Assembly: GCA_021205565.1 (NCBI GenBank)
Contig: JAJPXG010000057.1
Coordinates: forward strand, 21,714-66,568
DNA length: 44,855 nucleotides
From: Lachnospiraceae bacterium
Lineage (GTDB): Bacteria > Bacillota > Clostridia > Lachnospirales > Lachnospiraceae
Reading direction: 5' to 3'
Shown here: positions 2,969-38,070 of the stretch, one piece after another
How the letters are laid out: the number at the start of each line of letters is the position of its first letter
Numbering within the stretch: position 1 is the first letter of the stretch
Made by a program: the position numbers and the translations under genes
Notes under the pieces: model-generated
What the model was told of the DNA's origin: nothing
The model's input: only the letters and a program-made list of their open reading frames with translations
The model's database searches: none

Positions 2969-3345
2969 GTATTTCCATACCCTGATTACCCTCTGACTTC
3001 GTTTTTGGAGTTTGGAGGGATTTTTTATGCGTTGGTCTAAGACTATCGCTCTGCTGCTTATCCGAAGCGGCAGCTACATACATAGTATCATGGATTAGCA
3101 GAGGAACTTTGTTAAAAAAATCTCTGTTATTGCATGGTATTCTTTTACCCTCAAAACAGAAGTCAAATTTCTACAAGATAGAACTGATACACCCTACAAC
3201 CGTGAAGGTCTGACAGCCTTTGCGGTTTTTCTTTTGTCGTTTTTTGTCTGGCGGCAGGACAAGCCCGCTTCGCACACGGGATGCCGCTCCCCGCCTGCCA
3301 GTCTGAATTTTCACTCAAAAAAATTCAGACTGGAGGTAAAGATAA

Positions 3346-3780
3346 GTGGCGTACAATCACGGACGGGAAGAACGCAAGTGGCGTATCTGGAAAGAGAACG
3401 AAGAAAAGATACTGCGGGATTGTGGCGTTGAAGAAAGTGTCATTGAAGAAATCCGCACATATGACAGGGCAGATTTTAATTCCAACCGACGGTTCTACCG
3501 ATGGACAAATGATGTGGCGGAGTATCTGGAAGAAATGGCGGATACAGAGCCGCAGGCAGAGATACATTCCGTTTCGGATTTATTGGACGAGATTGAAAAT
3601 GAAAATCTGTATCGTGCATTACTTACGGTGGACAAGCGTACCCTTCAAATCGTCCTGCTGAAAATGCAGGGCTATTCTACAAAGGAGATTGCCCCCATTG
3701 TCCACTTGACAACAGGGGCGATTTACGCAAGGTTAGACCACCTTCGGAAAAAGCTGCGGCAATTCAAGAAAGAAATCTAA
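3346..3780 (+). CDS. Sigma-70-like (region 4 HTH) regulator
   Basis: DKRTLQIVLLKMQGYSTKEIAPIVHLTTGAIYARLDHLRKKLRQF resembles sigma region 4. Confidence 0.75.
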   Translation: MAYNHGREERKWRIWKENEEKILRDCGVEESVIEEIRTYDRADFNSNRRFYRWTNDVAEYLEEMADTEPQAEIHSVSDLLDEIENENLYRALLTVDKRTLQIVLLKMQGYSTKEIAPIVHLTTGAIYARLDHLRKKLRQFKKEI

Positions 3781-3856: not shown

Positions 3857-4330
3857 ATGTCATATCGGACAAAGTCATACACGCTTCGGGAAGAAATCAC
3901 GGAGGACAGTACAAAGTATTTTATCAGCTTTAAGGACGGGCAGGGAGCTTATCACGAATTGGAAGTTTCCCATGCGTTCTATATGGAGTTTCGGAGGTTG
4001 GAGCTGAACAACCGAAAGATACAGAACTGGGATCAGCGGCACAGGGAGTTTAACGAGGTATGGGACGAAACGCTGAACAGGCGGGCATTAAGGCTGCCGA
4101 AAAGTGTGGACGAGCAAATCATTGAGGCAGAACGGGACGAACTGCTCTATCGGGCAATCCACACACTGCCCGAACCACAGAAGCGACGTTTCCTGCTCCA
4201 TTACGAATACGGGTACACCTACCGCAGCATTGGCGTACTGGAACACCGTCGTGAGGAAACCGTGAGAAAATCCACCATCCTTGCAAGGGATAAAGTGAGG
4301 GCGGTTATGCAGAAATATCTCCGCTCCTGA
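3857..4330 (+). CDS. Sigma-70-like regulator
   Basis: LLYRAIHTLPEPQKRRFLLHYEYGYTYRSIGVLEHRREETVRKSTILARDKVRAVM. SD present. Confidence 0.7.
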   Translation: MSYRTKSYTLREEITEDSTKYFISFKDGQGAYHELEVSHAFYMEFRRLELNNRKIQNWDQRHREFNEVWDETLNRRALRLPKSVDEQIIEAERDELLYRAIHTLPEPQKRRFLLHYEYGYTYRSIGVLEHRREETVRKSTILARDKVRAVMQKYLRS

Positions 4331-12943: not shown

Positions 12944-13003
12944 GGCAGCTGCGCGGGTAAGATTGGGGCCGTATTACATACGGTGCATTTCGGCGCAGCT
13001 GCC
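12944..13003. other. Nested inverted repeats / structured noncoding element
   Basis: Outer 11-bp perfect arms GGCAGCTGCGC (12944-12954) / GCGCAGCTGCC (12993-13003); inner hairpin CCGTAT-TAC-ATACGG (12969-12983). Confidence 0.6.
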
Positions 13004-13398
13004 TGATGATTGCTTTTTTGATATTCGCCACTTTTGCCACGCGCCCCTGGCGATAGGGATATAGCAGGCCGCCCCTGGCAGGGCTGTCATAACTCCGCAG
13101 CGTCGTTTTACTCGTGCGCCGCAGGGTTCCCCCTCAAGTCTGTGGGAGGTCGTGAGAAAGTATCGTTAGCCCCCGCGCTGTCATCGCGCCCGGATTGCCG
13201 GTCCGGGTCTAAGGCTTCCGTCCATCGCTCGAACAGCTTGTCCTCATCACCTCCTACAAGCTGCTGTCATCGCGCCGGGCCTTACGCCGCTATTCACGCG
13301 GGTTATGTACCTACTATACCGTATATTCAATTTTCAAAGTGCCTGAAGGGTGAGGAAAATGTATCCTTCACTGTGTAGGCACTGGAAAGGGCCGGATG

Positions 13399-13866
13399 TC
13401 ACCCGTTTCGCAAAATTCTTTTGATTTTTTGTATTCGCTTATAGATGGCGTTCCGGGAGCATCCCCACATCCGGGCAACCTCTGACTGACGGTAGCCGTC
13501 CATGGCAATCAGCGTCACCAGTTCCAAATCCTTCTTACTGAGAGAGGAAAGCTGCTGATACAGCTTTTCGTCCTCAATGGATTCCACCCAGGCATAGCGC
13601 CCGGACGGTTGGTGCTGTTCAAATGCCACTGACAGAGCGGCAAACTTCCGAAACAATGTGGAATGCTTGTCCTCATCAAAAGAGGATTCCTCCGGCAGCT
13701 CTTGTGTGTGGTTTGCATAGACTCTCCGACTGCAAAACCAGCCCCAGTCAAATGCTTTCATCTTGGTAATGGCGTTCTCGTCCATGCCGGCGGCGACATA
13801 TTCCCTATGTAGCTGTTCCCATTCTTTATCAAATTTGCGCTTCTCACGCGCGTAATGAAAACTCAT
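13399..13866 (-). CDS. Sigma-70 region-4-like regulator
   Basis: LSSLSKKDLELVTLIAMDGYRQSEVARMWGCSRNAIYKRIQKIKRILRNG. ATG 13866, SD GGAGG. Confidence 0.75.
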   Translation of the reverse strand: MSFHYAREKRKFDKEWEQLHREYVAAGMDENAITKMKAFDWGWFCSRRVYANHTQELPEESSFDEDKHSTLFRKFAALSVAFEQHQPSGRYAWVESIEDEKLYQQLSSLSKKDLELVTLIAMDGYRQSEVARMWGCSRNAIYKRIQKIKRILRNG

Positions 13867-13871
13867 CGTTA

Positions 13872-13915
13872 CCTCCATTTCGATTCGGTTGATTTCGGGC
13901 GAATCGAAATGGAGG
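13872..13915 (-). promoter_or_regulatory. 16-bp perfect inverted repeat that includes the SD of the sigma-like gene
   Basis: Minus strand: CCTCCATTTCGATTCG-n12-CGAATCGAAATGGAGG-TAACG-ATG. Confidence 0.8.
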
Positions 13916-14238
13916 GCGGGGAGCGGCACCGGGGAAACAGAAATGCGCCCGGACAGCAGAAAGCTATTCGAGCGCAAAAACTACGATATTCAGTTAAAAA
14001 GCGACGATTTTCGCACTGGCCAGCAGACTGTTCCCGTTCGGGGGTCTGGCTTTTTTTGACAGTAATGCAAACATTGTCGGAATTTGTCGGCGGTTAGGTT
14101 GTGTCATGGGCGGCTCCCTCCTAAAGCCGCCGTATCTGCCAGCATTGGCGCGTCATTCTTTTTGAGGGCAAAAGAGCGGCGGCCTTGATTTCTCAAAACC
14201 GCCGCCAGCGCATGTGAAAATGAGCATGGAAAATGATC

Positions 14239-14278
14239 TGCCCAGCAGCGGTTTTTTTCTTTTCTGCCGCTGCTGGCA
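14239..14278. terminator. Hairpin at boundary of regulatory and cargo blocks
   Basis: CTGCC(C)AGCAGCGG…CCGCTGCTGGCAG with one bulge. Confidence 0.45.
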
Positions 14279-14360
14279 GAATAAAATAGTATTGACCTGA
14301 TTTTTCAAATTGCTTTAGATATCTCTTTAAATCTTAAATCCCGATTTATTAACTGACCGC

Positions 14361-37677: not shown

Positions 37678-38070
37678 CAGATCATTGATTAAGTAAAAAA
37701 GCAGCCCACAGTGACTTGTGGACTGCCTTTCCCAAATTTTTTTACACTCACACATTGCAGAATAGTACCATGACATTTAGCCCATCCAGCTTCGTATTTT
37801 CCACTAGATGTTTTCGTTTGCCAACTCTAGCTATGTTCATGGCGGCCAATGCCTTGGCCCATTTATCTACCATTCACCAGTATAGTCACCCACTAGTTCT
37901 TGATGTGCGCCTTACTTTATGCAGTATTGGTTCTGCATTACCTCGTACGGCAGCGGCATCCTAAGACGAGAGAACCGGCAAGGTCAAAAGTTTTTTCAAA
38001 AGACCACTTCCTTCCATTGCCAATGAGGCATTTATATTGTATACCAATTATGCTGCATTTTCAATAACTT

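Follow-up and report, generated by a model that had tools for sequence, protein, structure and literature searches.

A predicted Arg-Ser-Pro-Pro leader ahead of a Shine-Dalgarno-hiding hairpin in a family of sigma-like regulator genes from gut Clostridia

The question raised by this locus is how a sigma-like regulator comes to be translated when its Shine-Dalgarno sequence (SD) forms the end of a perfect hairpin. The gene lies in the window, by which we mean the whole stretch of DNA that was analysed, 44,855 nucleotides from a Lachnospiraceae bacterium. Its product ends in the helix-turn-helix of sigma-70 region 4, and it is followed downstream by two large serine recombinases with DUF4368. 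Genes for a short-chain dehydrogenase, an amidohydrolase and an ABC transporter lie upstream, with ICE-type genes (ArdC-like, YodL-like and topoisomerase) farther upstream. The adjoining large serine recombinases suggest that the regulator may control ICE activation. The minus strand near and upstream of the gene showed no consensus sigma-70 promoter. The gene and the two arms of the hairpin are located as follows.

13399..13866, minus strand: regulator with sigma-70 region 4, 155 amino acids (Pfam PF08281, E 4e-7)
13900..13915, minus strand: 5' arm of the hairpin, its first 5 nt CCTCC (13911-13915) being the anti-SD
13872..13887, minus strand: 3' arm of the hairpin, its last 5 nt being the SD GGAGG (13872-13876)

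The minus strand from 13915 to 13866 reads CCTCCATTTCGATTCG-CCCGAAATCAAC-CGAATCGAAATGGAGG-TAACG-ATG, and independent repeat detection returned an inverted repeat at 13915-13872 of the same strand with 16 nt, 100% complementarity and a 12-nt loop. When folded, the 121-nt hairpin region reached -43.2 kcal/mol (z = -3.97), a stability equalled by none of 200 shuffles, and by our own arithmetic 45 kb of random sequence should contain about 0.0003 perfect inverted repeats of 16 bp with a short loop. The first-pass annotation had described a perfect 16-bp hairpin on the minus strand, with the regulator's SD GGAGG ending the 3' arm and its complement CCTCC opening the 5' arm, and sequence, repeat detection and folding against shuffles all bear this out.

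Relatives of the regulator were present in 20 of 295 genomes in an order-level search, and profile and family-level searches recovered many more. Named genomes contributed 79 loci, chiefly from Lachnospiraceae and other gut Clostridia, and the removal of near-duplicates and disrupted loci left 64 non-redundant leaders of intact regulator relatives. The viral collection yielded a single relative, L158, which is distant. Plasmid records of Enterococcus faecalis also contain relatives, with two adjacent sigma-like genes just behind tet(O). In L159 (E. faecalis plasmid pE509-3) and L012, an RSPP leader (see below) and a hairpin precede a different sigma-like gene (MVKYAPRKVYI...) beside tet(O), a layout that resembles tet(M) and the regulators of Tn916. 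The motif is apparently absent from the leaders of the L012 and L179 classes, but these loci have the whole RSPP-hairpin leader one gene farther upstream, where it precedes another sigma-like gene, which indicates that the leader tracks the operon and not one protein. Matches to pemK RNA (RF02913) were seen close to leaders L005, L014, L022, L055 and L073.

The hiding of the SD is a property of the family. Of the 63 scorable leaders, 62 have the SD paired with an upstream strand at P>0.5, and their arm sequences differ widely. Further SD-bearing genes from these loci served as controls. Strong local pairing of the SD (P>0.5, energy < -12) was found in 57/62 family leaders compared with 14/70 controls, and the SD was touched by a helix of 10 bp or more in 31/62 compared with 5/70, one of these five controls being itself such a leader. 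In the close subclass, 97.4% of cells were paired and 5 of the 16 pairs had changed on both sides, compared with at most 57% pairing in slid controls; the SD-pairing stem is kept by compensatory change, as in an attenuator. Covariation among relatives, named beforehand as the test on which the hairpin could fail, is thus present. On the coding strand, the family stems hold 110 G-U pairs and 2 A-C mismatches, a ratio somewhat overstated by the preference of folding itself for G-U over A-C, and the large excess of G-U argues that the stem acts as RNA and not as a DNA operator. Judged from these comparisons of sequence, the hairpin is a member of a recurrent SD-hiding RNA device, and it is very likely an RNA switch concealing the regulator's SD. 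The cis RNA switch proposed in the first-pass annotation therefore stands as regards family-wide sequestration of the SD, compensatory changes and G-U bias, and only in part as regards what opens it: leader translation, one of the openers offered there, has support in the sequence, although that annotation contained no leader open reading frame, and the thermosensor is unlikely.

The support for leader translation comes from a short peptide motif encoded directly against the stem.

13914..13925, minus strand: leader codons CGC TCC CCG CCC for Arg-Ser-Pro-Pro, the second Pro codon overlapping the 5' arm
13926-13928, minus strand: Cys codon TGC before Arg-Ser-Pro-Pro
13869..13871, minus strand: stop TAA of the RSPP leader frame, 2 nt upstream of the regulator ATG

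In the relatives, TGY CGN TCN CCN CCN (Cys-Arg-Ser-Pro-Pro) likewise stands directly 5' of the stem. The pattern R[SAP]PP, at 40-100 nt before the start, occurred in 48 of the 64 leaders, where chance would give it in 0.6% per leader, and the antisense strand of the same 64 leaders had none. These 48 non-redundant leaders divide into RSPP (45), RAPP (1) and RPPP (2). All six Arg codons are used at the motif (CGT, CGG, CGC, CGA, AGA and AGG) and five Ser codons (TCA, TCT, TCC, TCG and AGC), and this synonymous spread, along with Ala or Pro at the Ser position in three leaders, points to selection on the peptide. The reading frame gives a similar picture: between the A run described below and the motif, 4 of 1309 codons in the RSPP frame are stops, compared with 59 of 1285 in each of the other two frames, and the RSPP frame is open in 22 of 24 leaders, the other frames being rich in stops. 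As in known arrest leaders, which carry R-A/G-P-P or a permissive variant, the motif sits close upstream of the regulated gene. Neither the residues after RSPP nor, between subclasses, the sequence preceding it is conserved, and the leader stops are scattered, the range being from -39, ahead of the 5' arm or in it, to positions far into the gene. A hydrophobic stretch, AFAVFLLSFF, was noticed by eye in leaders of the MAYN subclass, and none is clear in the leader of the window.

Two other readings of the motif were considered and rejected. As a nucleic-acid element pairing with the AUG region, it is excluded as the main cause by the codon pattern and the use of AGA, AGG and AGC; an antisense reading would need mixing of Asp with Glu and of His with Gln. 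RSPP is absent from the distant relatives L006, L007, L008, L020, L057, L077 and L078. Among these, L006, L007 and L078 have short leader open reading frames (MFYRWLCYEAKYP*, MKWLCYQARYP* and MTYWWQPYIAKYP*) whose stop lies at the start of the SD-hiding stem, and [RK]YP-stop is possibly the end of another stall motif in these leaders.

The position of the motif is as regular as its sequence. In every scored leader, the second Pro codon ends close to the SD-pairing bases, which lie at -6 to +6 nt from that point, and in the family leaders the SD begins 29-41 nt beyond it. With an assumed ribosome footprint, the stall site would cover the anti-SD strand but not the SD, which is the geometry of an attenuator; with the usual footprint, a ribosome stalled on the anti-SD is estimated to leave the SD accessible and enough space for another ribosome to initiate. 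The scheme that we propose is as follows. By default, CCUCC would pair with the SD of the regulator and the gene would be silent. A ribosome that initiates at ORF1 (14107) would slip by -1 at a run of seven A residues (A7) and continue through the leader in the RSPP frame, where it would slow or stall at RSPP with its body over the 5' arm. The freed SD would then allow a second ribosome to initiate, and the sigma-like regulator would be made. Judged from the leader sequences, the hairpin is probably opened by a leader ribosome that stalls or slows at RSPP. The hairpin, its conservation at the RNA level, translation of the RSPP frame and the fixed place of the motif over the anti-SD are well supported by sequence analysis; we infer stalling in vivo, the frameshift, a tuning signal and an effect on excision or transfer of the element. 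In ApdA and ApdP, RSPP is reported to permit arrest in part, and it has also been found in arrest sequences from random screens (PMC12992588).

How a ribosome would enter the RSPP frame is less uniform among the leaders. In the window, the frame has no ATG, GTG or TTG and closes 36 nt upstream of the A7 run, and a second open reading frame with an SD of its own leads into this run.

13994..14107, minus strand: ORF1, 37 codons (MTQPNRRQIPTMFALLSKKARPPNGNSLLASAKIVAF), the zero frame entering the A run
14117..14121, minus strand: SD GGAGG of ORF1, in the loop of a 7-bp stem GGCGGCT/AGCCGCC (14109-14131)
14051..14057, minus strand: A7 run, TCA AAA AAA GCC in the ORF1 frame, a -1 shift leading into the RSPP frame

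In its longer form the SD of ORF1 is AGGAGG, and its start is at 14107 of the minus strand. An in-phase slippery run and a receiving frame without a start are the layout of programmed -1 frameshifting, and 15 leaders are alike in this; in these leaders, with an SD-bearing open reading frame and an in-phase run, the RSPP frame often closes just 1-5 codons upstream of the A run. L067 has A5GA2 in place of A7, where the extra base fuses ORF1 to the RSPP frame without a shift and the A run is broken. Entry through a frameshift is, on this pattern, somewhat favoured for the window, and transcriptional slippage on the A run would yield the same product. Among the 48 RSPP leaders, 9 have an SD and start of their own in the RSPP frame (L009 and the subclass L202, L204, L206, L207 and L210 among them), 15 show the -1 route at the A run and 25, including 4 of the L030 type, show neither, one leader being counted twice. 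In leaders of the M[RC]WS type, ORF1 ends just before the A run. Since neither route was found for such cases, including the second copy in the window, frameshifting is a likely route for the window and no rule for the family. For the MAYN subclass, a conserved TTG was considered as the leader start and discarded, because the MGF subclass uses a different reading frame for the homologous DNA.

The second copy just mentioned lies on the plus strand, surrounded by a Mob_Pre relaxase and a ParB-like gene.

3346..3780, plus strand: second sigma-70 region-4 regulator with a GTG start, 29% identical to the first copy
3857-4330, plus strand: further sigma-like gene after the second regulator
3294..3336, plus strand: SD-hiding hairpin of the second copy (arms 3294-3311 and 3320-3336)
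3285..3296, plus strand: RSPP codons of the second copy
3114-3120, plus strand: A7 run of the second copy

A conserved short peptide, M[RC]WSxxxAxLLIxSSxY, is encoded at 3027-3098 of the plus strand and in L014, L022, L044, L048 and L193; it has a strong SD in a stem and ends just before the A run.

Two further hairpins belong to the leader of the first copy.

13944..13976, minus strand: weak terminator-like hairpin TGCGC...GCGCA, inside the RSPP frame
14238..14279, minus strand: upstream hairpin with an A-rich loop, part of a weak SQ2397-like match at 14159-14310

A terminator-like hairpin lies within the RSPP frame in most of the relatives inspected, much stronger than that of the window, and the leader ribosome could influence termination besides SD exposure. 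Taken together, the two steps would form a gate in which -1 frameshifting at A7 admits the ribosome to the arrest frame and arrest at (C)RSPP exposes the SD of the regulator, the same ribosome possibly melting the terminator; we put this full scheme forward tentatively and rate it a little below even. The upstream hairpin has a nearly invariant A-rich loop (AATAAAAAAAACGG) and varied stems, lies about 360-430 nt before the regulator start and was matched in 24 of 60 leaders. An A-rich-loop hairpin was also seen at about 2934-2970 of the plus strand and in L022, L048, L095, L097, L189 and others. The Rfam match of this region to SQ2397 (RF03532) scored 28.3 bits, below the gathering score of 100, and no Rfam family matched the leader-hairpin element at gathering level. 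A match to mir-2574 was set aside as a chance match to a palindrome.

Other explanations of the arrangement have to be weighed against a stall at RSPP. The leader ribosome could simply run through the stem, end beside the SD and re-initiate at the regulator, and the leader stop 2 nt before the ATG in the window, as well as stops at -3 to -9 in a few relatives, would suit such translational coupling. A stall is nevertheless favoured over coupling because the residues after RSPP are not conserved and the stops are scattered, from -39 to inside the gene, yet RSPP is fixed over the anti-SD, and we regard coupling without a stall as unlikely. A hairpin that silences transcripts entering from upstream, with a private promoter starting inside it to give a translatable mRNA, would resemble the protection from read-through that is known for transposase genes of insertion sequences, and the terminator-like hairpin upstream in most relatives fits this idea. 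However, the minus strand has no promoter-like sequence here, and such insulation leaves the conserved RSPP peptide and the open frame unexplained, making it quite improbable as the main function.

It could also be argued that the RSPP frame is a bystander and the hairpin alone is sufficient, especially as some distant relatives have the stem without RSPP, and that the hairpin responds to temperature, a protein or a trans-acting RNA. Thermometers rely on a marginally stable helix over the SD, but the stem here is a perfect 16 bp of about -25 kcal/mol, too stable for a thermosensor near 37 C; with the loop unconserved and the placement of RSPP too regular for a bystander, we consider an input of this kind very improbable. 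The perfect symmetry in the window would suit an inverted repeat that binds a dimeric repressor as DNA with no role for RNA, but the stems of the relatives are rich in G-U and almost without A-C, and they contain internal loops, unlike arms and, always, the SD, so that a DNA operator is hardly credible. Slowed or stalled leader translation at RSPP is thus the reading that we carry into the comparison with known systems.

Two further observations from the window may be added. In the intergenic region after the regulator (13000-13380, minus strand), the blocks CAGTGCCTAC, GGTACATAACC and GATGACAGC-like sequence are common to relatives, for example L004 downstream of its sigma gene, and this conserved region could be a target promoter of the regulator or an RNA. 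A FuFi-1 RNA (RF02986, 89 bits) was found at 37696-37951 of the minus strand, immediately upstream of a gene of the helicase type with 2976 amino acids.

Among the open-licence papers searched, we found none that deals with arrest peptides of ICEs, with SD hairpins upstream of sigma genes of this kind or with the trigger of these sigma-like regulators. What appears to be new here is the placement of R-[S/A/P]-P-P leader codons immediately before an SD-hiding hairpin. SQ2397, a cis-regulator of a helix-turn-helix transcription factor, touches the locus only in part: it has two hairpins in tandem, of which the first has an A-rich loop, and these align just upstream of ORF1, and the match excludes ORF1, the RSPP frame and the SD hairpin. 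In Erm-type attenuation, a stalled leader ribosome releases the downstream gene from an inhibitory stem-loop (PMC5118997). The motif here differs in being RSPP, and no drug link is shown. Erm stalling depends on macrolides and on other peptides.

With regard to the peptide, the nearest counterparts are ApdA, ApdP, ApcA and SecM, which likewise carry R-x-P-P (or RAPG, RAGP) near the leader end upstream of the regulated gene, and RAPP/RGPP upstream open reading frames have been reported absent in many Bacillota (PMC10951233, PMC12992588). In contrast to RAPP-type arrest peptides, the motif here is almost always RSPP and mostly preceded by Cys, the leader of the window has no clear export signal and the downstream gene is not a component of protein export. 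In Bordetella, downstream genes are controlled by the upstream open reading frame for CruR (DUF2946), which has conserved cysteines and a RAPP arrest motif at its C-terminus, but it acts through Rho-dependent termination, and an SD hairpin, unlike here, is not described in the available part of that report (PMC9426467). The closest scheme is that of CutF and cutO in Rhodobacter capsulatus, where likewise a leader with a stall-like motif, proline-rich and C-terminal, lies upstream of an SD-hiding stem-loop before the next gene, and slowed translation opens the stem-loop (PMC9973294). CutF is, however, an exported copper sensor with CxxxC and its own start, whereas here a short peptide, often without a start, precedes a sigma-like regulator of Clostridia mobile elements. 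Since many of the leaders have no start codon in the arrest frame, Clostridia arrest leaders may be a class that protein-based surveys miss. If our reading is true, a frameshift-gated arrest peptide in ICEs of gut Clostridia and in tet(O)-linked elements of Enterococcus would be a new arrangement compared with these systems, and the control of conjugative elements in gut and clinical Firmicutes would be tied to the behaviour of the ribosome, with a stall, and perhaps a frameshift, deciding whether the regulator is synthesized.
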